Positions 35,038 to 51,144 of a DNA stretch of 51,144 bases are shown piece by piece; position 1 is the first letter of the stretch; every line of letters starts with the position of its first letter. The stretch is from positions 1 to 51,144 of the forward strand of contig CAKQEI010000006.1 in assembly GCA_934230115.1 (NCBI GenBank), read 5' to 3'. Source of the DNA: an uncultured Prevotella sp. (lineage in GTDB: Bacteria > Bacteroidota > Bacteroidia > Bacteroidales > Bacteroidaceae). The notes under the pieces are model-generated. The model was not told the DNA's origin, did no database searches, and saw nothing but the letters and a program-made list of their open reading frames with translations. The position numbers were made by a program, and so were the translations under genes.

Positions 35038-36423
35038 TTACTCTATCTCCATCTGGTGGATAGTCTCCCAGTTGTCATTAACCTTCAATACAAGGTTCTG
35101 ACCCTTTGAGAGGTCCTCTGGCTGATCTGGACCAGGAGTTGGAGGTGTTACAGGATCTGGGTCTGGATCTGGTTTACCAGGCTCTGGCTTAGTATCCTGT
35201 GTAGTCTTAACACCAAGGTTGTACATGTGGTTACGAACAACGTTGAAGATAGAATTGCTCGTGTCTACTTCACCTTTACTTGGATCAGTATTATGGTCAG
35301 GAATTGTAACGTTCCATACCTTTATAATGTGCTCTTCTGAAGCGCCTGCAGACTTACCCATCAACTGAAGCTCCATTGTTACCTTGCCACCTTCAAACTT
35401 AAACGGAACGATGAACTTACCTGCAAATACAGAACCTTCGAGCATAGAAGCCTTTATAGATGAAGGACGAGTCCAGTTATCTGCATTTACATCATAATCA
35501 GCCTTACCCAAGAAACCATCACCACTCTTATCACCATTAGGGAACCAATCTTTCAAATTAATTGAATAGAGCACGAAAGCATCAGAGCCATCGCTGAACT
35601 TAGCGTCAGATGTAGGAGCTGAAGCTGAAGCTGAACCATTAACAGCATACTTAATAACGCTACCAGTTTCACCTGATGCAGTAAATGTGCTATTGAAATT
35701 GTTGAATTTCAACACATCATTCTTCTTTCTCATAACAAGACGAAGACTTGTAGCCTCAACACCATCGATGTGTGCAGGGATATTGGTAAAGTAGCCGAAA
35801 CCACCCGCTACCTGACGATGCAGAGTTACAGCAGCACCAATCTCACCATCAGCCTTGTTAGAAACATTCTTATCGCTGATTGTAAGGTCTGCCTCACCTG
35901 CAAACACTTCCTCTGCATCCTTGCCTGCAGCCAATGTTGCTGTGATGTCAGAGTAAGTAGTCGCCTTAAGTGTTGCACTTGCAACATTATTTTCGCCCAT
36001 CTTGAATGTGTAGTCGGTCTTTATTGCATCAGTATCATAGTAACCAATAGCTACAATCTTGTAGGCTCCATCATCCAACTTATCATCACCCTTCAAAGTG
36101 ATAGTGAGACGACGACCATGACCATTTGTTGTATACTCAAGGCTCTTAGTCCAGTCAATAGTATTCTGGCTGTCATAAGCAATCGTCTTGTCGGTTGTGT
36201 TATAAACCAAAACACGTACCTTGTTGATAGCCTGCAAAGCTGCCGACGAATACAATGGACGGCCAGCACGTGTCTGCAAGCCATCACCGCTGCTTGCTAC
36301 CTGCAATACGATCTGCTGTGCAGAGTTGTCCTGTGCAACATCGTTGTTCAAGGCATCGTCGCTGCTACATGCACTGAACAGGAATGTACCTGCTGCAAGT
36401 GCCATAAATAAACTTTTCTTCAT
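35038..36423 (-). CDS. Major fimbrillin, FimA/Mfa1 family
   Basis: A 461-residue lipoprotein precursor: lipobox FSACS (Cys19), then a linker with TRAGRP (Arg52/Arg55), the position where FimA-family pilins are cut by an Arg-specific protease before donor-strand assembly. The body shows the fimbrillin pattern (INKVRVLVYNTTDKTIAYD, YKIVAIGYYDTDA, VTLHRQVAGGFGYFTNIPAHIDG, IFNVVRNHMYNLGVK, where VRNHxYxL is typical). A Pro/Asp linker (KPDPDPDPVTPPTPGPDQP) leads to a terminal strand LVLKVNDNWETIHQMEIE, a likely donor strand. The upstream neighbour is the FimB-type anchor, so it is the main shaft subunit candidate. Lower GC than the housekeeping genes. Confidence 0.85.
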   Translation of the reverse strand: MKKSLFMALAAGTFLFSACSSDDALNNDVAQDNSAQQIVLQVASSGDGLQTRAGRPLYSSAALQAINKVRVLVYNTTDKTIAYDSQNTIDWTKSLEYTTNGHGRRLTITLKGDDKLDDGAYKIVAIGYYDTDAIKTDYTFKMGENNVASATLKATTYSDITATLAAGKDAEEVFAGEADLTISDKNVSNKADGEIGAAVTLHRQVAGGFGYFTNIPAHIDGVEATSLRLVMRKKNDVLKFNNFNSTFTASGETGSVIKYAVNGSASASAPTSDAKFSDGSDAFVLYSINLKDWFPNGDKSGDGFLGKADYDVNADNWTRPSSIKASMLEGSVFAGKFIVPFKFEGGKVTMELQLMGKSAGASEEHIIKVWNVTIPDHNTDPSKGEVDTSNSIFNVVRNHMYNLGVKTTQDTKPEPGKPDPDPDPVTPPTPGPDQPEDLSKGQNLVLKVNDNWETIHQMEIE

Positions 36424-36470
36424 AATTAAAACTTTGTTGTTACGTAATAAAATTATTATTATATATCTTA

Positions 36471-37367
36471 TTAATCTAATATCATGCCGTGTACAACCTC
36501 CCAGTTGTCGTTCACCTTGATGTATATATAGAACTTGTCCTCCTCCTTGTTGAAGACATACTTCAGCATAGTTATCTTGTTGCGCTCCAAGCTTATCTTC
36601 ACATCGTCTGGTGTAAGCTGCAAGTTGCCGGAGCCGTTGTTAGCCTTAACGAAGTTTACGTCAAGCACCGTTCCGCCTGTCACTATTGAAGGAGCCATAT
36701 ATGTGGCTGTCTTTATAAGAGACGTCGAGGCGATGGCTACCTTGTTGCATACGCTTGCCTCGTCAGAATACTCGAAGTTGGCGTTCACCTTGCCATAAAG
36801 GTTGTTGGCATCTATATCCACCATATCGAAGTTGTCGGGCAGATTCTCTGCCAGTACAACAAGCTTGCCTTTGATGCGTTCCATCTCCAAGGTATAGTCG
36901 TAATTGTAGGCGTCGTACACCAAGGTTGCGTTAAGCAGATAGACATCGTTGCCCTGTGCCTTGTCAGGATGAATGAGCATCGAGAGCCTGTCGTCGCTTA
37001 GTTGCGACAGCTCGTCCAGTCCGCCCCATACTGTAAGTATATACTTGCCGTGCGGCAGACATGGGCAGAAGTCTATAGCCACGGTCTTGCCGTCGCCCTC
37101 TACATTGAACACCCCCTGCTCCTCAACCACCTCGCCCGTCTTGGCATCGCGCAACATATAGAACAATGTAGGCACATACTTGTTGAAGGCAAGGTCGTCG
37201 GCAAGACGCTCCTCGGGCACCGTCTGGTCCACATTAAAGTAGTTCTTGTCCTTTACGCCTATCTCCACACGCAGTGGTGGACAATCCTCCAGCTGATCCC
37301 TGATGCACGAGGCAAGTGTAGGCGCAACCAGCAGCACAAGCAATATATTCTTAAGCGATATATTCAT
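36471..37367 (-). CDS. FimB/Mfa2 family fimbrial anchor lipoprotein
   Basis: A 298-residue lipoprotein with lipobox LASC (Cys21) and the start CIRDQLEDCPPLRVEIGVKDKNYF, typical of the FimB/Mfa2 family, which anchors the fimbria in the outer membrane and limits its length. Further family hallmarks: TLFYMLRDAKTGEVVEEQ, LPHGKYILTVWGGLDE, DYTLEMERIKGKLVVLAENLPD. It ends IYIKVNDNWEVVHGMILD, nearly the same terminal strand as the FimA-type product next door. It precedes the fimbrillin gene by 47 bases and follows the DUF3868 gene by 21. Confidence 0.85.
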   Translation of the reverse strand: MNISLKNILLVLLVAPTLASCIRDQLEDCPPLRVEIGVKDKNYFNVDQTVPEERLADDLAFNKYVPTLFYMLRDAKTGEVVEEQGVFNVEGDGKTVAIDFCPCLPHGKYILTVWGGLDELSQLSDDRLSMLIHPDKAQGNDVYLLNATLVYDAYNYDYTLEMERIKGKLVVLAENLPDNFDMVDIDANNLYGKVNANFEYSDEASVCNKVAIASTSLIKTATYMAPSIVTGGTVLDVNFVKANNGSGNLQLTPDDVKISLERNKITMLKYVFNKEEDKFYIYIKVNDNWEVVHGMILD

Positions 37368-37388
37368 TTTCTCGTATTATCCTTTCTC

Positions 37389-38759
37389 TTATTGATTGAT
37401 GACAGACTGGAATCTGTCGTCAGCCGTATAACTCTTGAGCACCTCTATAGCCTCCTCCTCCTTGCCCTCGCGCAGATAGAGCACGGCAAGATTGTTGACG
37501 GCTATGGCCGACTCGGGGAACCGCTTCACTATCATCCTGTACACCTGCTTGCGCTCCTCGTCGGTGGCAGCCAACGTTGCCACGCGCAGCAGCTCCTCCT
37601 CGTTGAAGGCGTCGGGACGCTTGCGGTACATGTCCTTCAGCTCGGCGTCGGTGGTGAAACTGCGTATGGTGTAGGTGTAGACATACTCCACCTTGCGGTC
37701 CTTCTGCAAGTAGCGTTCGCGGATGTCCTTCCAGCAAGCCAGGCGGCGTATGTAGCGTTCAGCCACGTCGTCGTTCTGGTCGGCGTAGCGGTCGAGAATG
37801 GCCCTCAGCTTGCCTGCGTCAGGATGACCGTCTGCCACCATTGCCTCCCACACGGGCTGCCAGCCCTCGGGGCGCGAGCCCACCTTGATGAGCCGCTGAA
37901 CATCGGCGCCGAGCCCCAGCTGCCCTACGAGCCACTCCTTGGCAGAGTTGGCACGGTTGCGCGAGAGGGGCGTGTTGAACGATAGCGGACCGTCGGCAGA
38001 GGCCATACCGAAGATGCTGAGCGACGTAAGCGTGGCAAGCGAGTCGTCCAGCACGGGCTGAAGCTTAGCCACCATGTTGTCGAGCTCACGGCGGTTGTTG
38101 CCCATATCCAGGTTGATGTCGTATTTGTTGATGACAAACTGAAGATTTGCCACACCCTTGCCCACCATCACCTTGGGCCTAACCTTAAACTCTGGCTCTA
38201 TCCAGAACACATTGATGTGCCGCTTTGGCGGAGCTGGCATCACTATCCTTGCCATGTCCACCGTCTCCCGTCCTGTACACTCGCCGCAGCCGTCGGTGGA
38301 AACCATAGCCACCAGTCGCGCGCTGTCCACGCCGGCAGGCAGACTCACAAGGGCGGCATATTTCAGCTCCGTAGGCTCCGACGTGTCGGCGGTCCTCACG
38401 ATGTGGCCCTCATAGGGGTCGCGGTAGCCCTCAAGCACCCGTCGGCGCTCCATCTTTTTGCTGTAGATGGGTGAGTAGAGGGCGAGCGGCTGACATTCGC
38501 CGAGCAGCGAGTCGCCCGCCATCAGCTGCGCCACCACAACCATTCGGCTTCGCTTCGATATGTAGTTGGCAGGCACATGAAAGCTGACGTCGACCACCGC
38601 CTTGCGGTCGGCATCGAGTGTGAGCACATGTGGCGAGGGCGTAAGGCTGATGCTCCGCTCCTTGTTGCCGACGGCACACCCCACGAGCAGACTGGCTCCA
38701 AGCGTAATAGCGCAGAGCGGTCTATATATTTTGCTTTGTTTCATCTTTTTTTTGACCAT
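37389..38759 (-). CDS. DUF3868/OmpA-like/TPR lipoprotein
   Basis: The frame is open from 38906 but overlaps the upstream gene; I start at 38759 (MVKKKMKQSK), 4 bases after the DUF3575 stop, which gives a lipoprotein signal LGASLLVGC and 456 residues. The N-terminal ~200 residues match the DUF3868 domain (HVLTLDADRKAVVDVSFHVPANYISKRSRMVVVAQLM). An OmpA-like peptidoglycan-binding segment follows (SIFGMASADGPLSFNTPLSRNRANSAKEWLV), and the C-terminus has TPR-like helices (ESAIAVNNLAVLYLREGKEEEAIEVLKSY). In Bacteroidales it sits between DUF3575 and FimB genes, as here, and probably links the fimbrial base to the peptidoglycan. Confidence 0.8.
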   Translation of the reverse strand: MVKKKMKQSKIYRPLCAITLGASLLVGCAVGNKERSISLTPSPHVLTLDADRKAVVDVSFHVPANYISKRSRMVVVAQLMAGDSLLGECQPLALYSPIYSKKMERRRVLEGYRDPYEGHIVRTADTSEPTELKYAALVSLPAGVDSARLVAMVSTDGCGECTGRETVDMARIVMPAPPKRHINVFWIEPEFKVRPKVMVGKGVANLQFVINKYDINLDMGNNRRELDNMVAKLQPVLDDSLATLTSLSIFGMASADGPLSFNTPLSRNRANSAKEWLVGQLGLGADVQRLIKVGSRPEGWQPVWEAMVADGHPDAGKLRAILDRYADQNDDVAERYIRRLACWKDIRERYLQKDRKVEYVYTYTIRSFTTDAELKDMYRKRPDAFNEEELLRVATLAATDEERKQVYRMIVKRFPESAIAVNNLAVLYLREGKEEEAIEVLKSYTADDRFQSVINQ

Positions 38760-38763
38760 TGTT

Positions 38764-39303
38764 TCAAAAGAAATACACAAGCGACACGGCAGCCCTTGTA
38801 GGCCCCACATAGTTCTTGTGCTTGCGCTCGAATTTCTTAATACACGGAATGCAGTCGCTCTCCTTATACCACAAATGGGCATAGCCCACGCCAAGCTCCG
38901 CCTCAAGGTTGAGGTTGGGCTTCAGAATCCAGTCGTAGCCGTAGCTGAAGCCTGCTCCTGCCAGATAGCCGTCGCGTCGGCGGTGGGCGAGAGTGCTGTA
39001 GAACTGAGCCGCATGGGCATGGAAACCCACGAAATGGCCCTCAAACTTCTCGCACATCCAATACCTTGCCTCGGGCTGCACAAGCAGGAATCGCAGCTTC
39101 TTGTTGTCCTTGAACGTCCAGGGATTGTAGGCCACCGACAGCTCCAATGTGGTCCTGTTCGAAAGGGCCATTTCGGCTGCGGCATTGGTGGTGGTTGTCA
39201 TCCAATATAGCGCGTTGGTCTTAAGGGCCACGTCCTGGGCACAAGCCCTATTTGAGACGATCCCTGCAAGGCACAATATTACAAATATTGTTCGTAAAAT
39301 CAT
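38764..39303 (-). CDS. DUF3575 outer-membrane beta-barrel protein
   Basis: A 179-residue exported protein with a signal peptide ending at RACAQ (residue ~23). The body is strand-rich and aromatic: DVALKTNALYWMTTTTNAAAEMALSNRTTLELSVAYNPWTF, RFLLVQPEARYWMCEKFEGHFVGFHAH and AGFSYGYDWIL, ending VSLVYFF with a terminal Phe, typical of a small outer-membrane barrel and the DUF3575 family. It is first in the fimbrial operon and may help assembly or anchoring. The first ~30 codons exist again as relics in the two other copies of the triplicated unit (40671-40778 and 42155-42247). No clear start-proximal RBS; upstream is a ~500-bp leader. Confidence 0.82.
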   Translation of the reverse strand: MILRTIFVILCLAGIVSNRACAQDVALKTNALYWMTTTTNAAAEMALSNRTTLELSVAYNPWTFKDNKKLRFLLVQPEARYWMCEKFEGHFVGFHAHAAQFYSTLAHRRRDGYLAGAGFSYGYDWILKPNLNLEAELGVGYAHLWYKESDCIPCIKKFERKHKNYVGPTRAAVSLVYFF

Positions 39304-39631
39304 CTGATTTTAATATTTATTGATATTAATTTGTACGTAGCCACAATCAGCAACTTTCATGCAAATAGAAGGTAGGCCACTAAGTTCCACCCCGCTAAAA
39401 TGTATTTAGTTGTTGACTTGACTGTTGTATGTATATATATTGAACTCCGCCAAGGCGGATTCGTAAGTTGTTGAAGAGTTGATTGTTGTTGATTGTTGCT
39501 GAGTCATTATTTTTTGGCTCAGCTTAATACAACAGCATGTAACCCATTGTATTCCAAGTAAATGTGCAAATTATTTTTTCTACAAAAACTTTCTACTATT
39601 ACTTATCATTAAAATAATCTCGCACCTGACT
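39304..39631 (-). promoter_or_regulatory. Fimbrial operon leader, copy 1
   Basis: The 504-bp gap between AraC copy 1 and the DUF3575 gene. This part, read on the minus strand, contains a T-stem region near CTGAG/CTCAG (39499-39522), 10-bp-phased GTTG(A/C)TT-type repeats (GTTGATT at 39478-39484 and 39488-39494), and the near-palindrome TCCGCCAAGGCGGA (39446-39459). TTCTATTTG (39361-39369 on the complement) is a poor -7 candidate about 60 bases before the start. The whole leader recurs twice (see 40779-41105, 42248-42573). AraC binding is plausible but unproved. Confidence 0.6.
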
Positions 39632-39719
39632 TATAAAAAATAAAAGCGGAGCACGACACGTCTGTAGTGCTCTCCTAAAACCCTCAATAAGGATGTTTAT
39701 TATTTCGATTGCAAAGGTA
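39632..39719 (-). ncRNA. Candidate short RNA or attenuator unit, copy 1 (promoter plus terminator)
   Basis: On the minus strand a perfect -7 box TACCTTTGC (39711-39719) is followed by a GC hairpin (GGAGAGCAC at 39667-39675 with GTGCTCC at 39648-39654) and a T-rich end TTTTATTTTTT. A transcript starting near 39704 would end near 39640, about 65 nt. It could instead be the terminator of AraC copy 1. Bases 39720-39807 hold no other feature apart from the end of the regulator gene. Confidence 0.5.
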
Positions 39720-39807
39720 CAAACATTTTCATTCACATCACATTTTTTGTGCAACGATAACTTGTCACCCATGCACGATTTTTGTTCAAAACCACTATTT
39801 TTGCCTT

Positions 39808-40665
39808 TTATCTAAGGTTTACGGGCACATCGCCAAGAAATTTCTTACAGAAGTCGGTAAGATAATTTGGCGTCAGATTGTATTTCCCGGCTATCTCTTT
39901 TACGGAGAGGTCGGTAGTCTTGAGGTCCATCAGCACCTGCATCTGGCGTTTGGAGTTAAGCCATTCGCCGCAGGGCTTTCCGAAGGCACGCTTGAAACGG
40001 CGGTTGAACGTGGCGGTGGACATCTCCATCTGGGCGCACAGCTCCTGAGCGTTGATGTCGCACGTGTAGAAGCGTAACACCTTATCGCGGAAGTCGAAGT
40101 CGTCGCTACGCACACAACGGAACATGTAGAACAGCTCCTCCTTATTATACAAGGTGCGCAACATGTAGACTATAATGTAGCGTTTGAACTCCATGAAGCG
40201 GTAGCCCAACAGATTGCTCTCTACCTCATGCTGCATGAGCTTAAGCTCCATCATCAGCATACTTTTTATCTCCAGTCGCGGCAAGCCCTGACTCTGGCGT
40301 TCCTCACGCGTAGGCTCCTTGTAGTCTGCCGTAGCGTTGCCAAGCGAAAGCCCGTTGCACAGAGCCATCGAGCTGTCGAAGCTGCATAACAGCATCACAG
40401 CGTCCTTCAAACCTTTTGTATAGCCGTTGTCGCCCTCGTGTACGACAAACATCTGTCCCTCGCCTGCAAACTCTTTCACGTAGATGCCCGTCGATATTTC
40501 CACTTCGCCTTCAAGCACAAATACCAAGAGCGAGCTGCACACACGGTCGCGACTGAAGTGCTCGCCCTTCCTAAGCCTTAGGACGTAGAACAGCGAGGGC
40601 CTTCCATCCTCATAGACTTCCCTGGTGAGCCGTTGCTCAGCATTTTTCATTCCTGTTTCTTGCAT
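39808..40665 (-). CDS. AraC-family transcriptional regulator, copy 1
   Basis: A 285-residue regulator, closest of three tandem copies to the fimbrial operon. The N-terminal ~150 residues form a cupin-like sensing domain (FSRDRVCSSLLVFVLEGEVEISTGIYVKEFAGEGQMFVVHEGDNGY). The C-terminal ~85 residues are an AraC helix-turn-helix pair (INAQELCAQMEMSTATFNRRFKRAFGKPCGEWLNSKRQMQVL; LSVKEIAGKYNLTPNYLTDFCKKFLG), binding DNA as expected of the family. Sequence is nearly identical to copies 2 and 3. Its start codon lies 5 bases after the stop of a relic leader frame (40671-40778), so translational coupling is possible. Likely activates the fimbrial operon and/or its own copies; inferred from position. 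Confidence 0.85.
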   Translation of the reverse strand: MQETGMKNAEQRLTREVYEDGRPSLFYVLRLRKGEHFSRDRVCSSLLVFVLEGEVEISTGIYVKEFAGEGQMFVVHEGDNGYTKGLKDAVMLLCSFDSSMALCNGLSLGNATADYKEPTREERQSQGLPRLEIKSMLMMELKLMQHEVESNLLGYRFMEFKRYIIVYMLRTLYNKEELFYMFRCVRSDDFDFRDKVLRFYTCDINAQELCAQMEMSTATFNRRFKRAFGKPCGEWLNSKRQMQVLMDLKTTDLSVKEIAGKYNLTPNYLTDFCKKFLGDVPVNLR

Positions 40666-40670
40666 AGCTA

Positions 40671-40778
40671 TTAATCATATACTTCGTTAGTTGGTCTTAA
40701 GGGCACGTCCTGGGCACAAGCCCTATTTGAGACACTCCCTGCAAGGCACAATATCAGAAATATTGTTCTTAATATCAT
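40671..40778 (-). pseudogene. Relic 5' end of the DUF3575 gene fused before AraC copy 1
   Basis: An intact 35-codon frame from ATG (40778) to TAA (40671-40673) begins MILRTIFLILCLAG and still encodes the DUF3575 signal peptide (SNRACAQD). It then shifts frame through a one-base loss (GGCCACG in the original, GGCACG here) and stops 5 bases before the AraC start. It is the duplicated start of the fimbrial operon's first gene and could still be translated as a leader peptide. Confidence 0.82.
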
Positions 40779-41105
40779 CTGATTTTATCATTGATTGATG
40801 TTAATTTGTACGTAGCCACAATCAGCAACTTTATTGCAAATAGAAGGTAGGGCACTAAGCCCCACCCAGCTAAAATGTATTTATTTGTTGATTTGACTGT
40901 TGTATGTATATATGTTGAACTCCGCCAAGGCGGATTCGTAAGTTGTTGAAGAGTTGATTGTTGTTGATTGTTGTTGAGTCAGTATTTTTGGCTCAGCTTA
41001 ATACAGCAGCATATAACCCTTTGTCTTCCAAGTAAATGTGCAAATTATTTTTTCTACAAAAACTTTCTACTATTACTTATCATTAAAATAATCTCGCACC
41101 TGACT
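40779..41105 (-). promoter_or_regulatory. Fimbrial-type leader, copy 2 (upstream of AraC copy 1)
   Basis: Duplicated leader: same GTTGATT repeats, the CTGAG/CTCAG stem region, and TCCGCCAAGGCGGA at 40921-40934. It precedes the relic DUF3575 start, so AraC copy 1 is under a copy of the fimbrial control region. Confidence 0.65.
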
Positions 41106-41193
41106 TATAAAAAATAAAAGCGGAGCACGACACGTCTGTAGCGCTCTCCTAAAACCCTCAATAAGGATGTTTATTATTTCGATTACAAAGGTA
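41106..41193 (-). ncRNA. Candidate short RNA or attenuator unit, copy 2
   Basis: The -7 box is TACCTTTGT (complement of 41185-41193, last base changed). The hairpin (41122-41128 with 41141-41149) keeps its pairing although one base in the right arm has changed (GTGC to GCGC, giving a G-T pair), which supports a conserved RNA structure. A T-rich tail follows. Confidence 0.5.
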
Positions 41194-41281
41194 CAAACAT
41201 TTTCATTCACATCACATTATTTGTACAACGATAACTTGTCACCTATGCACGATTTTTTCTCAAAATCACTATTATTGCCCT

Positions 41282-42133
41282 TTATCTAAGGTTTCCTGGC
41301 ACATCGCCAAGAAATTTCTTACAGAAGTCGGTAAGATAATTTAGCGTCAGATTGTATTTCTCGGCTATTTCTTTTACGGAGAGGTCGGTAGTCTTGAGGT
41401 CCATCAGCACCTGCACCTGGAGCTTGGAGTTGAGCCATTCGCCGCAGGACATTCCGAAGGCACGCTTGAAACGGCGGTTGAACGTGGCAGAGGACATCTC
41501 CATCTTGGCGCACAGCTCCTGAGCGTTGATGTCGCACGTGTAGAAGTGTAACACCTTATCGCGGAAGTCGAAGTCGTCGTTACGCACACAACGGAACATG
41601 TAGAACAGCTCCTCCTTATTATACAAGGTGCGCAGCATGGAGACTATAATGTAGCGTTTGAACTCCATGAAGCGGTAGTCCAACAGATTGCTCTCTACCT
41701 CATGCTGAATGAGCTTAAGCTCCGTCATCAGCATATTGTTTATCTCCAGTCGCGGCAAGCCCTGACTCTGGCGTTCCTCAGGCGTAGGCTCCTTTTCCGT
41801 AGCGTTGCCAAGCGGAAGCCCGTTGCACAGAGCCATCGATCTGTCGAAGCTGCAGAACAGCATCACAGCGTCCTTCAAACCTTTTGCATAGCCGTTGTCG
41901 CCCTTGTGTACGACAAACATCTGTCCCTCGCCTGCAAACTCTTTCACGTAGACGCCCGTCGATATTTCCACTTCGCCCTCAAGCACAAATACCAAGAGCG
42001 AGCTGCACATACGGTCGCGACTGAAGTGCTCGCCCTTCCTAAGCCTTAGGACGTAGAACAGCGGGAGCCTTCCATCCTCAGAGACTTCCCTGGTGAGCCG
42101 TTGCTCAGCATTTTTCATTTCTGTTTCTTGCAT
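41282..42133 (-). CDS. AraC-family transcriptional regulator, copy 2
   Basis: A 283-residue near-copy of the flanking regulators, two residues shorter because a YK/AD-type stretch near residue 115 is missing (NATEKEPT versus NATADYKEPT). Substitutions are scattered, mostly conservative; the two HTH segments (INAQELCAKMEMSSATFNRRFKRAFGMSCGEWLNSKLQVQVL and LSVKEIAEKYNLTLNYLTDF) are intact. It is expressed, if at all, from the leader copy 3 upstream (42134-42750). Same strand and spacing as its neighbours. Confidence 0.85.
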   Translation of the reverse strand: MQETEMKNAEQRLTREVSEDGRLPLFYVLRLRKGEHFSRDRMCSSLLVFVLEGEVEISTGVYVKEFAGEGQMFVVHKGDNGYAKGLKDAVMLFCSFDRSMALCNGLPLGNATEKEPTPEERQSQGLPRLEINNMLMTELKLIQHEVESNLLDYRFMEFKRYIIVSMLRTLYNKEELFYMFRCVRNDDFDFRDKVLHFYTCDINAQELCAKMEMSSATFNRRFKRAFGMSCGEWLNSKLQVQVLMDLKTTDLSVKEIAEKYNLTLNYLTDFCKKFLGDVPGNLR

Positions 42134-42154
42134 AGTTATTAATCATTTACTTCG

Positions 42155-42247
42155 TCAGTTGGTCTTAAGGGCCACGTCCTGGGCACAATCCCTATTTGAG
42201 ACGCTCCCTGCAAGGCACAATATCAGAAATATTGTTCTTAAAATAAT
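42155..42247 (-). pseudogene. Relic 5' end of the DUF3575 gene before AraC copy 2, start codon lost
   Basis: The original ATG is ATT here (42245-42247). The rest still reads the signal peptide (ILRTIFLILCLAGSVSNR, then CAQDVALKTN) in frame and ends at TGA (42155-42157) where the duplicated unit joins the next. It therefore cannot be translated as the DUF3575 start. Confidence 0.8.
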
Positions 42248-42573
42248 CTGGTTTATTATTGATTGACGTTAATTTGTACGTAGCCACAATCAGCAACTTT
42301 CATGCAAATAGAAGGTAGGACACTAAGCCCCACCACGCTAAAAAGAATTTAGTTGTTGATTTGACTGTTGTATGTATATATGCTGAACTCCGCCAAGGCG
42401 GATTCGTAAGTTGTTGAAGAGTTGATTGTTGTTGATTGTTGCTGAGTCAGTATTTTTGACTCAGCTTAATACAGCAGCATGTAACCCCTTTCTCGTCCAA
42501 GTAAATGTGCAAATTATTTTTCTAAAAAAACTTTCTACTATTACTTATCATTAAAATAATCTCGCACCTGACT
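42248..42573 (-). promoter_or_regulatory. Fimbrial-type leader, copy 3 (upstream of AraC copy 2)
   Basis: Third copy of the same leader: TCCGCCAAGGCGGA at 42389-42402, GTTGATT repeats and CTGAGTC/GACTCAG stem. Confidence 0.65.
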
Positions 42574-42661
42574 TATAAAAAATAAAAGCGGAGCACGACA
42601 CGTCTGTAGTGCTCTCCTAAAACCCTCAATAAGGATGTTTATTATTTCGATTGCAAAGGTA
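42574..42661 (-). ncRNA. Candidate short RNA or attenuator unit, copy 3
   Basis: Perfect TACCTTTGC box (complement of 42653-42661), hairpin 42590-42596 with 42609-42617, T-rich tail; sequence as copy 1. Confidence 0.5.
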
Positions 42662-42750
42662 CAAAAATTTTCATGCACATCACATTATTTGTGCAACGAT
42701 AATTTGTCACCCATGCACGTTTTTTGCTCAAAATCACTATTTTTGCCCTT

Positions 42751-43608
42751 TTATCTAAGGTTTCCGGGCACATCGCCAAGAAATTTCTTACAGAAGTCGG
42801 TAAGATAATTTGGCGTCAGATTGTATTTCTCGGCTATCTCTTTTACGGAGAGGTCGGTGGTCTTGAGGTCCATCAGCACCTGCACCTGGCGCTTGGAGTT
42901 GAGCCATTCGCCGCAAGGCATACCGAAGGCACGCTTGAAACGGCGGTTGAACGTGGCGGAGGACATCTCCATCTTGGCGCATAGCTCCTGAGCGTTGATG
43001 CCGCACGTGTAGAACTCGAACACCTTATCGCGGAAGTCGAAGTCGTCGCTACGCACACAACGGAACATGTAGAACAGCTCCTCCTTATTATATAAGGTGC
43101 GCAGCATGTAGACTATAATGTAGCGTTTGAACTCCATGAAGCGGTAGCCCAACAGATTGCTCTCTACCTCATGCTGAATGAGCTTAAGCTCCGTCATCAG
43201 CATACTTTTTATCTCCAGTCGCGGCAAGCCCTGGCTCTGGCGTTCCTCAGGCGTAGGCTCTTTGTATTCTTCCGTAACATTGCTGAGCGAGAGTCCGTTG
43301 CACAGAGCCATCGAGCTGTCGAAGCTGCATAACAGTATCACAGCGTCCTTCAAACCTTTTGCATAGCCGTTGTCGCCCTTGTGTACGACAAACATCTGTC
43401 CCTCGCATGCAAACTCTTTCACGTAGATGCCCATCGACATTTCCACTTCGCCCTCAAGCACAAATGCCAAGAGCGAGTAGCACACACGGTCGCGACTGAA
43501 GTGCTCGTCCTTCCTAAGCCTTAGGACGTAGAACAGCGAGGGCCTTCCATCCTCATAGACTTCCCTGGTGAGCCGTTGCTCAGATTTTTTCATTTCTGTT
43601 TCTTGCAT
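42751..43608 (-). CDS. AraC-family transcriptional regulator, copy 3 (promoter-distal, likely the original)
   Basis: A 285-residue regulator highly similar to copies 1 and 2 (LRKDEHFSRDRVCYSLLAFVLEGEVEMSMGIYVKEFACEG; HTH INAQELCAKMEMSSATFNRRFKRAFGMPCGEWLNSKRQVQVL). It is the only copy with a unique upstream region: a perfect -7 box at 43692-43700 next to a poly-G/poly-T tract. It is first in transcription order and has the single-copy promoter, so it may be the original gene; copies 1 and 2 follow duplicated fimbrial leaders. Confidence 0.85.
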   Translation of the reverse strand: MQETEMKKSEQRLTREVYEDGRPSLFYVLRLRKDEHFSRDRVCYSLLAFVLEGEVEMSMGIYVKEFACEGQMFVVHKGDNGYAKGLKDAVILLCSFDSSMALCNGLSLSNVTEEYKEPTPEERQSQGLPRLEIKSMLMTELKLIQHEVESNLLGYRFMEFKRYIIVYMLRTLYNKEELFYMFRCVRSDDFDFRDKVFEFYTCGINAQELCAKMEMSSATFNRRFKRAFGMPCGEWLNSKRQVQVLMDLKTTDLSVKEIAEKYNLTPNYLTDFCKKFLGDVPGNLR

Positions 43609-43691
43609 AGTTTTTTAGATAGTAATCATATACTTCGTTATATACTTAAAAAACCCACTCTTAATAAAAAAAGCAGGCTTCAAAATACTAT

Positions 43692-43727
43692 GCAAAGTTA
43701 CACAATTATTTTTTTTGAGGGGGGGGG
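43692..43727 (-). promoter_or_regulatory. Promoter of AraC copy 3 with homopolymer tracts
   Basis: Minus-strand TAACTTTGC (43692-43700) is a perfect -7 box, 84 bases before the start. Eight T (43709-43716) and nine G (43719-43727) lie exactly where the spacer and -33 element should be. No TTTG is present. Bases 43728-43887 hold direct GTTAAG-type repeats (43761-43790) and nothing else recognisable. A run of 13 A is at 43888-43900. Confidence 0.6.
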
Positions 43728-43967
43728 ATTTTGTTAATAGTATTAAATATTAGCTAAAGAAGTTAAGGAGTCAGGAGTTAAGAAGTTAATTATGGCATCC
43801 CTTACATACCTACTCTGACAGATTATGCAGCCCGCTTTTGTTTGGGATTAGAGCACCATCCACTCCCACAGATTGCCGCCCATATATAAAAAAAAAAAAA
43901 TGAACATATAATTAATCAAAAAACTTTTTGTAACTTTACACCAAAATATAAAAAAGAAAGGCATAAT

Positions 43968-45548
43968 ATGGCACTTAAACTATACCCGATAGGAATACAG
44001 ACATTCGAAAGAATACGCAAGGACGACCGCCTGTATGTGGACAAGACGGAATATGTCTACCGAATGACACACAACAACTATACGTATGTGTTTTTGGGCC
44101 GTCCGCGACGCTTCGGCAAATCGCTGCTCGTGTCGACTCTCGAAAGCTATTTCGAGGGAAGGAAGGAGCTGTTCGAGGGATTGGCTATCGAGAAATTAGA
44201 GAAGGAATGGAAAGAATATCCCGTGCTGCACTTCGACCTTTCGGGCGGAAAACACCAGGACGAGGAGCAACTGTACCGCTACCTAAATTCTGTGCTTAGA
44301 GAGAACGAAAGAAAATACGGATTCAACAACGACGAAACCATCGACATCAACATCCGACTGGACAATCTCATACAAAGGGTTTTTGAGATTACCGGGAAGC
44401 AAATGGTGGTGCTTATCGACGAATACGACGCGCCGCTGCTCGATGTTGCCCACCAGGACGAAAAGATAGGAAATCTGCGCAACATCATGCGCAACTTCTT
44501 CAGTCCGCTGAAAAAGAATGAATCGATGCTGCACTTCGTTTTCCTCACAGGAATAACCAAATTCTCGCAACTGAGCATCTTCAGCGAACTCAACAACATC
44601 ACAAACATCAGTATGCAAGAGGAATATGCCGGAATTTGCGGCATTACGAAAGAGGAACTACTGACACAAATGTCGGAGGATATTGACGCTCTTGCCAAAC
44701 GACTGTCGCTTTCGAGAGAGGCTACCATACAAAAACTCAAGGACAACTACGACGGCTACCATTTCGCATGGCCGTCGCCCGACGTGTTCAATCCCTACAG
44801 TCTGCTTAACTGCCTCGCCGATGGCAAGCTGAAAGCGTATTGGTTTGGCTCTGGCACTCCCACTTTCCTTATAGAAATGATGCGGAAGTTCAGAACCGTG
44901 CCGTCGAAAATAGCAGGTATGCAAGCCAAGGAGTCATCGTTCGACGCGCCTACGGAGAACATGAAGAGCATCATACCCCTACTCTACCAAAGCGGCTACG
45001 TGACAATCAAGGACTACGACCCGCTGCTTGAACTCTACACGCTCGACTTCCCAAACCGGGAAATACGCATGGGGCTATACGACAGTCTGCTGGCAAACTA
45101 CATGGACGCTGACGCCGACGAGGGACGCGTGGTTATAGCCCACATGTCGGCCTTTATCAACAACGGCGACATCGACGGAGCTTTGCAGCTGCTAAGGACT
45201 TTTCTTGAAACTGTGCCCTACTGCGACAACACTCTCTACGAAGGCCACTACCAGCAAATGCTCTACCTTGTGTTCGCCCTTCTCACCAACTACCACATCT
45301 TTGTAGAGCAGCGCACGGCTAAAGGACGAACCGACATTACAATTGAAACGAAGTCACACATATTTATATTGGAACTGAAGTTTGACAAGACAGCCGAGGA
45401 GGCTCTTGCACAAATCAACAAAAACCGCTACGCCGAGGCCTTTGCCCTGAAGGGCAAGACCATCGTGAAAGTGGGAATAGGATTCAGCGTGAAGGAGGAG
45501 AGAAACATTACGGAATGGGTGAAGGAAGCGGAATGCTCAGAGTGCTGA
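43968..45548 (+). CDS. AAA-ATPase-like / PD-(D/E)XK nuclease-like protein
   Basis: A 526-residue protein of the expanded Bacteroidota family with an N-terminal AAA-ATPase-like domain and a C-terminal PD-(D/E)XK domain (DUF1703-like). It opens KLYPIGIQTFERIRKDDRLYVDKTEYVYRM; Walker A-like GRPRRFGKS is at 44-52 and Walker B-like VVLIDEYDAPLL at about 147-158. The C-terminal nuclease core has GRTDITIETKSHIFILELKFDKTAEEAL, with Asp, Glu and Lys in the D-ExK pattern (about 455-475). Function in vivo is unknown; often found in mobile or defence-rich regions. A weak promoter box TAACTTTAC lies at 43931-43939. Confidence 0.85.
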   Translation: MALKLYPIGIQTFERIRKDDRLYVDKTEYVYRMTHNNYTYVFLGRPRRFGKSLLVSTLESYFEGRKELFEGLAIEKLEKEWKEYPVLHFDLSGGKHQDEEQLYRYLNSVLRENERKYGFNNDETIDINIRLDNLIQRVFEITGKQMVVLIDEYDAPLLDVAHQDEKIGNLRNIMRNFFSPLKKNESMLHFVFLTGITKFSQLSIFSELNNITNISMQEEYAGICGITKEELLTQMSEDIDALAKRLSLSREATIQKLKDNYDGYHFAWPSPDVFNPYSLLNCLADGKLKAYWFGSGTPTFLIEMMRKFRTVPSKIAGMQAKESSFDAPTENMKSIIPLLYQSGYVTIKDYDPLLELYTLDFPNREIRMGLYDSLLANYMDADADEGRVVIAHMSAFINNGDIDGALQLLRTFLETVPYCDNTLYEGHYQQMLYLVFALLTNYHIFVEQRTAKGRTDITIETKSHIFILELKFDKTAEEALAQINKNRYAEAFALKGKTIVKVGIGFSVKEERNITEWVKEAECSEC

Positions 45549-45614
45549 TGTCAATGGCGTCTTTTGTAAGTTTTTCTGACATAGCGGCATCTGCAAAACC
45601 GATAAATACTCAAA

Positions 45615-45657
45615 GAGGCTGAGCCTTTATAGCTCAACCTCTCCTGTTTTTTTGTTG
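45615..45657 (+). terminator. Terminator after the AAA/nuclease gene
   Basis: GAGGCTGAGC (45615-45624) pairs with GCTCAACCTC (45632-45641) apart from one mismatch, then TCCTGTTTTTTT. It is between convergent genes. Confidence 0.7.
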
Positions 45658-45660
45658 CAA

Positions 45661-45894
45661 TCAGCCCTCGCTGCCGTCATCGCCACCGCCCTCCTGCGAG
45701 CCGCTGCCTCCTGCGGTAGAACCGCCTGGCTTGCTGTCGGCACCTCGGGCTATACCTGAGCGCATGGAGGCCTCGTTGATAACCTTGCTCTGGGTGAGCT
45801 TGCCGTATAGTTCGGGCTGCATTACACAAGCCCACTTTTCTTTTGACTTGTCGAACGACACGTTGCGCTCGACTGCTTTCACTTTGATTGACAT
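45661..45894 (-). CDS. Truncated HU-like DNA-binding protein
   Basis: A 77-residue protein. Residues 1-51 (MSIKVKAVERNVSFDKSKEK and VINEASMRSGIARG) match the start of long HU-family proteins of Bacteroidota (SIKYK..., later EASxRSGIxxG). After RSGIARG the usual second half is absent and is replaced by a Gly/Ser/Asp-rich tail (GGSTAGGSGSQEGGGDDGSEG). It lacks the DNA-binding beta arm, so it may be inactive or act with another subunit. It has a consensus promoter (45991-46022) and is convergent with the ATPase gene. Confidence 0.6.
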   Translation of the reverse strand: MSIKVKAVERNVSFDKSKEKWACVMQPELYGKLTQSKVINEASMRSGIARGADSKPGGSTAGGSGSQEGGGDDGSEG

Positions 45895-45990
45895 AATCCT
45901 GAAAAGATTTTAGTTAAACATAGGAAAATTTGCTCCGCTGAGCAAAATAGTATTAACTTATTCTTAAACCTCTATTTTTATTAATCTGAT

Positions 45991-46022
45991 GCAAAGATAC
46001 AAATAGTTTTGAAACGATGCAA
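45991..46022 (-). promoter_or_regulatory. Promoter for the truncated HU-like gene
   Basis: Minus-strand TTG (46020-46022), 20 bases, TATCTTTGC (45991-45999): a complete Bacteroidota pair, about 97 bases before the start. Bases 46023-46340 have no recognised feature. Confidence 0.7.
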
Positions 46023-46340
46023 GAGTTTTCCCACGAAACGAATGTTTAATGTTGAAATTTTTTTTTGAATGGGGATTGTGACTGAGTCAACTTGTATTAT
46101 CAAAACAACCATATTCATAACCTCTGACCACCTGTAAATACGACTTAAGGTCATGTGTGCACGGCCTATATAAGCCTAATTGTCAACAACACCAAATGGA
46201 CATGGCAAGGACGGGCTGTGGAAAAGTTGCCATTTCAAGGCGCAGAGGAGGAACTTTACCATAGCAATTAACATTATTTACCCCAAAATTCTTTTTCAAA
46301 CTTTTTATGTATTACTGACAGGTGAATGAAAAAAATGTAG

Positions 46341-46348
46341 TAATTTTG
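46341..46348 (+). promoter_or_regulatory. -7 box for the orphan gene
   Basis: TAATTTTG matches TAnnTTTG, 57 bases before the start of the 396-residue gene. No clear -33 element. Confidence 0.5.
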
Positions 46349-46405
46349 TCTTCCGAACACCCTACACGTGTTTTTCTAAATAATCTTTAATTTAAATATC
46401 ATATA

Positions 46406-47596
46406 ATGGACGAGAATATTAAGCAAAAATGCCTTAAGGCTTACTACAAAACCGACATTGACCCAAAACTTGAAAGGCTACATGAGGTGAAAGATATTGT
46501 AGCCAATTTTGAAAAAGAAGGAGCAGACCGTCTGATGTACGCTCTTAGTATGCGACACATCGACATTGAAGAAATAGAAAGATTTGCCGTTTTCATTTCC
46601 AATGCACGTGAAAAGATGGAGAAAGAACTTGAGCGGTTGCACAAATTCGAGACAAACTTCAATCAGGATTTTGCCACCGACCACAACGATTACTACAACT
46701 CTGTGTGCGAAATTCTTAGACACACCCGCAGCCACATGTCGCCGTTGAAGAAGGTGTTCAAGAAATTCTGTCCAACAAGACATCCTACAGCTGCCCAATG
46801 CGCCTCTTATGGAATAGAGCAGAAATCAGTATTCGAAGAGTCGGCGTTAGGTAAAAGCACATACAATAAGGATTTGTTCGACATGTCGTCTTTTCCGCCC
46901 GCTGTGCATGGGTTGTTCGATGAACTCAAGAAATTCTTCGGGGCGCAGGAAGAGTGCATGAACTTATGTATTGAAATTCTGAATGAGGAGAAGGAGATTC
47001 GCGATGACCCAATGAAATGCAAGTATCTGTTGGATGTATACAAAAAGAAAGTGTACAAGCGACTGGAAAACGAGATTATGTTGTTCGAGAATTCAGTTAA
47101 CATACTCAAAGAAATAACCTTCGCATACAAAAGTTATGTCACCTATGCGTCGGATGAAGGTTTCGCCCAGGGCGAATACCACAAGCACAATCATGCCGAC
47201 ATGGACCATTTCTGCATTATTGAGTGCTTTACAGAACCCAATGACATCACTATTGCTGAAAAGGCTCTTTGGGGCAATAATCCCAAGACGGTAAAAAAGA
47301 TAAAGTATGTGATTGGTCACTTCGATGATTTGCTGCCATCCGACTTCAAGCATAAACAAATGGGACTCTATGAGTATATCTTCTGCCAATGGGCTTTGCC
47401 GAATAATGTGAAAAAGGCTGTGGAATATTTCATTAATCATTATAATGGAAAATACAAGGTGGTGAAATATAATGCCGTAAATAATCGTAGCCTGCAGTAT
47501 GACAAGAATTCTGAGATAGTAAAGAACTTCTTCTCCAACATCAATAAATTGTTTGAAGAGAGCAACGACGAGGATTTAATGGAGAATTTTGCCTAA
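46406..47596 (+). CDS. Hypothetical protein, AT-rich orphan
   Basis: A 396-residue soluble protein without a signal peptide or obvious membrane segment. It looks helical and charged (HEVKDIVANFEKEGADRLMYAL; FISNAREKMEKELERLHKFETNF), with a short Cys/His-rich stretch (KKFCPTRHPTAAQC) and another (CIIECFTEPND). I do not recognise a family. Its codons are noticeably AT-richer than those of the housekeeping genes and it sits alone with its own promoter and terminator in an accessory stretch, suggesting acquisition. A structural role cannot be assigned. Confidence 0.6.
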   Translation: MDENIKQKCLKAYYKTDIDPKLERLHEVKDIVANFEKEGADRLMYALSMRHIDIEEIERFAVFISNAREKMEKELERLHKFETNFNQDFATDHNDYYNSVCEILRHTRSHMSPLKKVFKKFCPTRHPTAAQCASYGIEQKSVFEESALGKSTYNKDLFDMSSFPPAVHGLFDELKKFFGAQEECMNLCIEILNEEKEIRDDPMKCKYLLDVYKKKVYKRLENEIMLFENSVNILKEITFAYKSYVTYASDEGFAQGEYHKHNHADMDHFCIIECFTEPNDITIAEKALWGNNPKTVKKIKYVIGHFDDLLPSDFKHKQMGLYEYIFCQWALPNNVKKAVEYFINHYNGKYKVVKYNAVNNRSLQYDKNSEIVKNFFSNINKLFEESNDEDLMENFA

Positions 47597-47638
47597 AAAA
47601 AGTAGATTTCTTTTATGGCTTTTTGTATGTAAATAATC

Positions 47639-47677
47639 AAAAAGTGTATCGGTCTGCAATAACCGATACACTTTTTT
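47639..47677 (+). terminator. Rho-independent terminator after the orphan gene
   Basis: A perfect 15-bp inverted repeat (47639-47653 with 47662-47676; GTGTATCGGT core) with an 8-base loop, flanked by A- and T-runs. Confidence 0.85.
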
Positions 47678-47711
47678 AGTATACGAAAATACAGTTCAGT
47701 ATTTTGCTTCG

Positions 47712-47813
47712 AAAAAGTAAATTGAATTTCTGCAAAAAGAAAAATGCCATCATCACGTGAATTTATTACTTGCGTTTTTTCAATCCATTTTTGCCTTTTT
47801 CAATTTACTTTTT
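47712..47813. repeat. 15-bp inverted repeat in AT-rich gap
   Basis: AAAAAGTAAATTGAA (47712-47726) and its exact complement TTCAATTTACTTTTT (47799-47813) enclose 72 bases. They lie between the orphan gene and the primase-like module. Bases 47814-48058 hold no convincing gene (a 72-codon frame at 47770-47988 lacks any recognisable feature). Confidence 0.6.
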
Positions 47814-48058
47814 AACATTTGAAAACCTTTTCCCACACACAGGACCGCAAATGCTCCTGCAAATCAGAATCCACGTAATTCTTTGGATATCAACGAAAAA
47901 ACCACGAATTTTGCATCGTCTTAAAGATACAACAGACTACCCGACAAGTGAGTTCGAAATCACAAGACGGGGAATGACGGTACTATAAAAGATGGCAGGG
48001 ATTCCTCTTCGATTGTCATCGTACCAGAGGGGATTATTTTTAATACCAAAACAAAACT

Positions 48059-48436
48059 ATGAAAAAGGTATTGAGCATGAAAAGAGACATTTTGCTATGC
48101 ATCGACTTGCAGGCGTATCTGCAGACCGACGACCTTGTGGACGAGAACAAGCCTTACTACGGCACTCTGACGCTCGACGACAATTACAACGCCCAATTTG
48201 TGGAGCGACCGGGCAGCGCCACAACAAGGCGCAACCTGAGAATCTTCGACGGACGATACATCACCCTGACCTACCGACCGAAGGACGGACACATCAGGTT
48301 CAACTTCAAGGAGCTGCAACCGGTGTACCTGCTGAATAGCGACATGTTTGCCGAGGGTGTGAGAAACGAGATTCGCATGGCGGTAAAGTGCTGCGTGGAC
48401 AAGGGCCTCGGAGAGGTGAAGTGGGTTGGCAGGTAG
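48059..48436 (+). CDS. Small hypothetical protein of the primase-like module
   Basis: A 125-residue soluble protein, start at 48059 or the seventh codon (MKRDILLCIDLQ). It is mixed alpha/beta (YYGTLTLDDNYNAQFVERPG; YITLTYRPKDGHIRFNFKELQPVYLLN) with a C-terminal helix (EIRMAVKCCVDKG). I recognise no domain. It precedes the DUF3987-like gene after a 259-bp gap that contains a long inverted repeat, and is probably part of the same module. A role in replication control is only a guess from position. Confidence 0.6.
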   Translation: MKKVLSMKRDILLCIDLQAYLQTDDLVDENKPYYGTLTLDDNYNAQFVERPGSATTRRNLRIFDGRYITLTYRPKDGHIRFNFKELQPVYLLNSDMFAEGVRNEIRMAVKCCVDKGLGEVKWVGR

Positions 48437-48476
48437 AAAAGGAAAACATGGGGGGATTAATCCCGTGGGCTAAGCT

Positions 48477-48633
48477 ATTACAATTACAGTTATTACAGTT
48501 ATTACAAATAGGGTGAATATCTTAAAGCCCCTTCTTAAAGACTTTATAACTAATTAATAATCAAATAGTTATATATAAAAAGAAAGAGACAGGCAATCCC
48601 TGTAAATTAAACTGTAATAACTGTAATTGTAAT
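48477..48633. repeat. Perfect 24-bp inverted repeat with 9-bp iterations (candidate control/origin site)
   Basis: Arms 48477-48500 and 48610-48633 are exact complements, enclosing 109 AT-rich bases. Each arm is built of ATTACAGTT units (two perfect plus ATTACAAAT-like flanks), giving 9-bp direct repeats. It ends about 60 bases before the DUF3987-like gene. Such iterons can bind replication initiators or repressors. No other feature is seen in the 259-bp gap. Confidence 0.7.
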
Positions 48634-48695
48634 GACAGCCCACACCCCACTTCCTCTTAAAGGCTGACTATCAACAACTTAACAAATCATCAGAC

Positions 48696-50033: not shown

Positions 50034-50066
50034 CGGCCGACATTATCACTAAAAAAACAAGTAACT

Positions 50067-51083: not shown

Positions 51084-51144
51084 ATTTTGAGTTTTGAATT
51101 GTCGGCAAAGCCGATTTTGAGTTTTGAATTTTGAGTTTTGAGTT
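51066..51144. repeat. TTTTGAA/TTTTGAG repeat array, copy 3 (cut by the window end)
   Basis: Heptads of TTTTGAG/TTTTGAA with the hairpin GTCGGCAAAGCCGA (51101-51114), matching copies 1 and 2. It overlaps the end of the primase-like gene and supplies its TGA. The inverted arm is not reached. Confidence 0.8.

Follow-up and report, generated by a model that had tools for sequence, protein, structure and literature searches.

We analysed a 51,144-nucleotide stretch of DNA from an uncultured Prevotella sp. (contig CAKQEI010000006.1 of assembly GCA_934230115.1; hereafter the window), in which a fimbrial operon is preceded by a tandem array of AraC-type regulator genes (Table 1). Self-comparison of the window aligned positions 39214-42155 with 40690-43638 at 93.8% identity and 39214-40689 with 42158-43640 at 93.5% identity, and an ungapped repeat finder resolved three tandem units of ~1.47 kb at a spacing of 1468-1475 nt, far above chance. 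Each unit contains an intact AraC-type gene, a copy of the fimbrial leader and about the first 30 codons of a DUF3575 gene. The original prediction, made from the sequence alone, had described this three-unit array, and the comparisons bear it out. Its placement of a DUF3575 start in every unit also holds, with the refinement that the real gene continues only from the unit at 39214.

Read along the minus strand, the array opens with a homopolymer run (G9 on the plus strand, C9 on the AraC strand) and a TAACTTTG box, followed by AraC-A, a leader, a DUF3575 fragment and AraC-B. A second leader and DUF3575 fragment lead into AraC-C, and the third leader leads into the full DUF3575 gene and a series of co-oriented genes that extends to position 27363. 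The earlier claim that regulators sit behind leader copies is correct for AraC-B and AraC-C, which directly follow one; AraC-A has its own upstream region.

Origin and distribution of the array

The operon itself may be of the Mfa1 type. Its first gene encodes DUF3575, and the 461-aa product matches the Mfa1 family model with an E value of 6e-8, although its 32 bits fall short of the 130 set as curated cut-off. The 298-aa protein, which we take to be Mfa2-like from its operon position and from general background, is 96% identical to an entry named Prevotella sp. (P0247). Searches of solved-structure sequences with the 298-aa and 461-aa proteins returned enzymes only (E 0.3-0.4).

Variation among the three units affects 139 of 1486 aligned columns and is spread across them. 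Site patterns are star-like (44/38/36) and unclustered (p 0.73); an origin of the middle unit by a single switch was considered and is unsupported (p 0.13). Near relatives among public proteins, compared at the protein level, differ for each copy: P0034 is 98.2% identical to AraC-C, P0036 97.2% to AraC-B and P0003 96.8% to AraC-A. The triplication looks old and real rather than artefactual, because each copy has separate near relatives in other assemblies. Misassembly is frequent for tandem repeats, and the array was read from an assembly alone – but in view of these relatives and of the dispersed divergence, we regard an assembly artefact as very improbable.

Public collections hold 46 AraC entries at 84-97% identity (P0001-P0046) plus two partial ones. 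By comparison, one DUF3575 entry at 84% identity or above was present among 120 of 581 matches listed, and 21 entries for the 298-aa protein among 120 of 547 matches listed. We rejected such counts as a measure of diversity, as entries are not strictly clustered. A second AraC group (P0065-P0119), ~48% identical to the window's proteins and at least 96.6% identical internally, occurs in many metagenome contigs.

We compared the window with 40 DUF3575 loci and their surroundings, which represent 40 of 63 matches listed and come from 31 Prevotella-like genomes. DUF3575-led Mfa1-type operons of these bacteria resemble the window in that DUF3575 comes first, followed in L044-L046 by genes related to that for the 455-aa protein and, judged by eye, to that for the 298-aa protein; the Mfa1-like subunit is the window's. 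They differ from it in their regulators: although some loci end at a contig boundary, the AraC profile matched near only one of the 40 (L046, in genome G471; E 1e-5), where a single, divergent gene encodes a protein 31% identical to the window's. Direct repeats of at least 150 nt occur in 7 of the 40 loci, and none has two AraC matches. One such repeat (L064, 4023-5096 and 7203-8274; 1.07 kb, 97% identical) lies upstream of another DUF3575 operon.

Broader searches gave no closer relative. Genome contigs yielded no relative with a single AraC query and four loci at 24-29% identity with a 33-sequence alignment. Viral contigs yielded none by protein or by leader DNA, and a protein search of plasmids gave 10 records, with a best full-length match of 29.5%. 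AraC searches of whole genomes, in overlapping sets whose empty results show nothing for want of a positive control, matched 0 of 393 genomes at E 1e-30, 0 of 299 at 1e-40 and 0 of 1 at 1e-30; the single matches in 199 genomes at 1e-25 and in 160 at 1e-30 were both G471, at 31% identity. By one peptidase, the closest genomes are 72, 69 and 68% identical; G389 and G328 belong to one very large genus, and G019 is alone in its genus. Within the collections searched, the array looks like an innovation of this lineage, because the 40 DUF3575 loci show only the one AraC and never two.

Table 1. Features of the array, its head and the adjoining fimbrial operon (window coordinates).
Feature	Position	Strand	Basis
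G9 run (C9 on AraC strand), candidate slipped-strand site	43719..43727	+	run scan of window
TAACTTTG, -7-type box of AraC-A	43693..43700	-	motif scan
Unit A, transcribed first	42158..43640	-	repeat finder, self-comparison
Unit B	40690..42157	-	repeat finder, self-comparison
Unit C, joined to fimbrial operon	39214..40689	-	repeat finder, self-comparison
AraC-A, 285 aa	42751..43608	-	open reading frame (ORF) list, HTH_18
AraC-B, 283 aa, in-frame 6-nt deletion	41282..42133	-	ORF list, HTH_18, alignment
AraC-C, 285 aa	39808..40665	-	ORF list, HTH_18
TACCTTTG box, leader copy A	42654..42661	-	motif scan
TACCTTTG box, leader copy B	41186..41193	-	motif scan
TACCTTTG box, leader copy C	39712..39719	-	motif scan
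Terminator-like hairpin with T run, leader copy A	42591..42614	-	repeat finder, folding
Terminator-like hairpin, leader copy B	41123..41146	-	alignment to other copies; absent from repeat-finder list
Terminator-like hairpin, leader copy C	39649-39672	-	repeat finder, folding
Best conserved block of unit, from just past TACCTTTG box through hairpin	39583..39710	-	alignment
Decayed DUF3575 5' fragment before AraC-B, ATT for ATG (start codon lost)	42158..42247	-	alignment
Decayed DUF3575 5' fragment before AraC-C, one-base deletion, 35-codon frame	40690..40778	-	alignment
Full DUF3575 gene, first in fimbrial operon	38764..39303	-	PF12099, E 3e-66
455-aa protein, TPR and PA1041-type anchor matches (weak, under curated cut-offs)	37389..38756	-	profile search
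298-aa protein, no Pfam or NCBIfam match	36471..37367	-	profile search
461-aa Mfa1-family-like fimbrillin	35038..36423	-	NF038041
Three more co-oriented genes, 431, 457 and 1613 aa	27363..34935	-	457-aa one very weakly Mfa1-like (E 6e-4)

Regulators and leaders

All three AraC copies match HTH_18 (PF12833) at or above the Pfam cut-off and have the C-terminal pair of helix-turn-helix (HTH) units of the AraC/XylS family. An N-terminal, cupin-like effector/dimer domain is predicted from strands at residues 26-96 in a structural model of AraC-A, the one copy modelled, at moderate confidence. This model, built with 33 sequences (pLDDT 74, pTM 0.60), has a cupin-like barrel followed by two HTH units, and Foldseek matched it to domains of ToxT, Rns, RhaR and ExsA and to cupins. 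Its ten best solved-structure matches are ToxT, Rns and CsvR (TM 0.40-0.46, identity 12-15%), and a search of solved-structure sequences with the AraC profile matched three DNA-binding domains. Judging from the model, the window's AraC proteins may work like pilus regulators of the ToxT/Rns type.

The AraC copies share 89.4-90.2% protein identity, with Ka/Ks values of 0.59 (A-B), 0.50 (A-C) and 1.14 (B-C). Their 858-column alignment contains two gaps, compared with six indel events in the 628 flanking columns: one is the in-frame deletion of 6 nt, and the other spans a single base at the stop codon, where TAA is retained. The AraC genes look maintained and the duplicated DUF3575 start does not, because the regulator frames stay open while the DUF3575 fragments have decayed. 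This difference bears on a reading in which an old tandem duplication persisted through drift or because it supplied more regulator, and in which feedback plays no part. Such dosage or neutral amplification would suit the star-like, unstructured divergence and the fairly high Ka/Ks; the open AraC frames beside decaying DUF3575 fragments, together with the near relatives of every copy in other assemblies, argue against it, and we consider it unlikely.

The Bacteroidales -7-type promoter consensus is TAnnTTTG (PMC7366714). Consistent with a promoter of this type, the TACCTTTG box of all three leaders fits the consensus. The window has 34 such boxes where 25 are expected, so that one box on its own carries no significance. 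Across related operons, a box lies no more than 700 nt upstream of DUF3575 in 33 of 40; 200 block shuffles gave a mean of 11.1 and a maximum of 17. Among the 40 loci, L063 offers only 79 nt upstream. In the window's leaders, a hairpin with a T run starts ~40 nt past the box. A 51-nt piece of copy C folds at -13.3 kcal/mol, and none of 200 shuffles was as stable; for longer pieces of copies C, B and A (86-91 nt), 3, 14 and 15 of 200 shuffles were. The block from just past the box through the hairpin has one variable column in 127, a value as low as in 16 of 5000 shuffles – at a width chosen after viewing the alignment, widths of 100 and 150 giving 258 and 91 of 5000. This hairpin may act as an attenuator, a leaky terminator or an insulator.

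Two further stable hairpins lie downstream of it, in an A/C-rich part of the leader on the minus strand (copy C, 39425-39530, z -3.8; copy A, 42360-42475, z -4.8). At L044, a CCGG-type hairpin is seen by eye near the start codon. An Rfam search of 36000-46000 found no match. Scans for sigma-70-type and terminator consensus sequences gave counts about as in shuffles, and the leader hairpin was not among the terminator-scan matches.

If the hairpins terminate transcription, the AraC genes could be driven separately, with the copies sensing different effectors or forming mixed dimers and the leaders merely carried along. Besides the terminator-like hairpin in each leader, this paralogue diversification could account for the ~10% protein divergence and Ka/Ks of up to 1.14, for the close relatives that every copy type has in other assemblies and for the numerous, mosaic AraC variants in public data. 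It fits less well with the promoter/hairpin block being the best conserved stretch of the unit, or with differences that extend past the effector domain, as do 10 of the 45 columns that vary in the protein alignment (after residue 198). We hold it to be possible, although on balance doubtful. Three near-identical candidate target regions for one operon would also be expected if extra leaders titrated AraC, or if AraC repressed, so that copies raised a threshold rather than a gain. The ToxT/Rns-like fold leans towards activation without proving it and nothing speaks directly against such a threshold, which strikes us as quite improbable.

A homopolymer at the head of the array

The G9 run before AraC-A is the sole G/C run of at least seven in the window, and the original prediction overlooked it. 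It stands close upstream of a core promoter box, in the arrangement C9-N18-TAACTTTG. On its other side lies a divergent AAA-ATPase-like/PD-(D/E)XK gene (43968-45548) that adjoins the array.

Similar runs are associated with DUF3575 operons. Within 500 bp upstream of DUF3575 we observed 15 G/C runs of at least eight in 19,579 bases (13 of 40 operons), of which L069 alone supplies three in a different-looking GC-rich repeat, compared with 10 in 498,100 bases elsewhere (enrichment p about 1e-15). Across the 31 genomes, the pattern G8-N(16-31)-TAnnTTTG gave 42 rows representing 30 distinct sites in 15 genomes (L085-L114); a reversed-pattern control gave 3 matches in 2 genomes. The gap between run and box at these sites is 15-30 nt, and 18 or 19 nt in 12 of the 30. 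At least 8 are adjacent to DUF3575, from a comparison with 18 DUF3575 places; judged by eye, further sites stand ahead of exported proteins, SusC-like ones among them, and some lack a downstream ORF. In G471, two divergent TAnnTTTG boxes flank a long G run (contig C14, 48791-48849; L112, L119), where slippage could affect both directions at once.

Sites with a C run, as in the window, occur in 8 of the 31 genomes (control, 2 matches in 2 genomes). About half of their rows belong to a repeated element in G490, and one other is the DUF3575 operon L045. The G490 element consists of a C run, a short spacer, a G run and then TACTTTTG or TACCTTTG, and is found at many places in that genome (L117, L124, L126, L128, L130-L139).

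L044, which has the most similar DUF3575 and no AraC, carries TACCTTTG at -230 and a G11 run 36 nt upstream of the box, start to start. Its run thus lies at the fimbrial promoter itself and the window's at the regulator array, from which we infer that the control point moved upstream from promoter to array. In our view, the homopolymer is a better-supported candidate for the variable part of the array than is copy number. Elsewhere in the window, a gene that encodes a DnaG-type (CHC2) zinc finger contains 33-bp tandem repeats (50604-50720).

A candidate phase-variable cascade

We consider the best explanation of the locus to be a phase-variable input to an AraC cascade that works by read-through and in turn feeds the fimbrial operon, and assign it a probability of about 0.4. 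It is the best-supported reading because of the additional homopolymer. A putative dedicated activator of the adjoining operon would have been copied into three tandem units along with the leader of that operon, and the first AraC gene would be transcribed from a promoter whose upstream part is the run. Changes in run length would probably turn this promoter up or down at random. AraC protein would then act on the near-identical leader promoters. Transcripts from two of these would get past a terminator-like hairpin that leaks and so reach AraC-B and AraC-C, and the third promoter would serve the fimbrial genes. The box copies before AraC-B and AraC-C, each with a T-run hairpin in between, give a candidate layout for such read-through. 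In sum, the copies would turn a stochastic input, by amplifying it, into fimbrial output that is strong and possibly bistable. The observed foundation of this reading comprises the anatomy, the intact AraC frames, the decayed DUF3575 fragments and the conservation of promoter and hairpin, as well as the near relatives of all copies elsewhere and the association of runs with upstream regions of DUF3575 operons. Binding, the sign of regulation, read-through and slippage are what we infer.

Several results weigh against the cascade. No clear AraC operator was found in the leaders: scores for spaced direct repeats are weak and inconsistent, with leader B no better than chance (158 of 300 shuffles) and leaders A and C modestly above it (19 and 4 of 300), and no word above 8 nt is common to the upstream regions of the leader and of AraC-A. 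Each hairpin may work as a terminator and so insulate the units. Ka/Ks values of 0.50-1.14 suggest relaxed or diversifying selection, not three identical amplifier parts, and the AraC-A model is of moderate quality, with a TM of about 0.45 to ToxT. The homopolymer before AraC-A reads as C on the coding strand, and most precedent runs are G. The run-box geometry is typical of the whole G-run class, not of its fimbrial subset: the eight DUF3575-linked gaps are 15, 21, 22, 23, 24, 25, 28 and 30 nt, and the window's 18 nt occurs at none of them. DNA similarity between the window leader and L044 is not significant (29 nt, E 1.8).

The original prediction had proposed positive feedback, in which activation of the fimbrial promoter would also activate the regulators. 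The anatomy fits such a loop, with two of three AraC genes behind leaders that carry a -7-type box and with a ToxT/Rns-like fold; the lack of a clear operator and the hairpin ~40 nt past the box do not favour it. Rns is a pilus activator. ToxT is described as activating the tcpA pilus promoter, whose transcription reads through to toxT (PMC2940755). By analogy with such precedents, positive feedback is plausible. The window resembles ToxT-TCP and Rns in the AraC fold, to judge from the top solved-structure matches, and in having a regulator beside a pilus operon; in the ToxT system, transcription from the activated pilus promoter continues into the gene of the regulator, and the box copies before AraC-B and AraC-C may allow the same here. 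Unlike ToxT and Rns, the window has three copies before the operon, two of them behind duplicated leaders, with 12-15% identity in the ten best matches, a Bacteroidales promoter type and feedback that is predicted. In a further precedent, transcription activated by VtrB of Vibrio parahaemolyticus is reported to pass an intrinsic terminator into the regulator gene (PMC10971746), though VtrB is an OmpR-family regulator with a different target.

Recombination between units, through which the original prediction supposed that copy number could change, might add a second source of variability. Many close AraC relatives combine residues typical of different window copies: in a typing of 46 proteins, N- and C-terminal types differed in 21 and agreed in 8, 6 lacked a C-terminal marker and 11 were unclear, and the direction of the mosaics cannot be scored because copy A has no derived residue in the C-terminal part. 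A pairwise-incompatibility test of 49 AraC sequences gave p 0.0085. With 19 entries on contigs of at least 10 kb, 2 of 2000 shuffles reached the observed value (1 of 2000 with the window copies added), and with 17 hand-picked entries (without P0011, P0044 and P0046, and with P0013 at 9.9 kb) plus the window copies, none of 2000 did. When sets of 18 were drawn at random, four draws gave 0 of 500 and a fifth gave p 0.09. The related AraC group (55 proteins, 14 informative sites) showed no signal. The single-copy 298-aa gene of the same operon also shows incompatibilities (18 of 19 entries P0241-P0259, 17 informative sites, p 0.04). The mosaics lend weak support to recombination between array units; they are no proof of it, because the 298-aa gene also shows the signal and assembly chimeras are possible. 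That one organelle has two DNA-encoded layers of variability – slippage setting the input, and a recombining regulator-plus-leader array setting the read-through gain and shuffling AraC variants in the population – is a tentative proposal that we think unlikely.

Invertible promoters usually have inverted repeats shorter than 40 nt. No inverted repeats of at least 40 nt are present in 36000-51144; shorter ones were sought only in the leaders and the AraC-A upstream region, at separations of up to 40 nt. Bacteroides surface loci, in the same bacterial order, are described as switching randomly through invertible promoters (PMC4747536), and the window is unlike them in that its candidate switch is a homopolymer. 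A closer likeness is found in Bordetella, where the fim2, fim3 and fimX promoters are reported to contain C runs whose length affects transcription (PMC1891110): there, as here, a homopolymer lies in a fimbrial promoter region. The window differs in that its run precedes a regulator array, not a subunit gene, in that the promoter consensus is another one, and in that slippage is presumed. Among the open-licence papers listed in our searches (in one case 20 of 54), no title or abstract opening describes phase variation by homopolymers or slipped strands for Prevotella, Bacteroidales or Bacteroidetes.

Neither the array nor the homopolymer alone is a new kind of system; what is new is their arrangement. 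If the cascade is real, a Prevotella-like bacterium would offer a natural case in which the number of regulator-plus-leader units, placed behind a slippery promoter, encodes the gain of a feedback loop. Quite apart from the array, G runs beside TAnnTTTG seem to form a class of switchable promoters for surface proteins that is widespread in these genomes, and the sites in 15 of 31 Prevotella-like genomes may represent a general class of slippery promoters for surface proteins.

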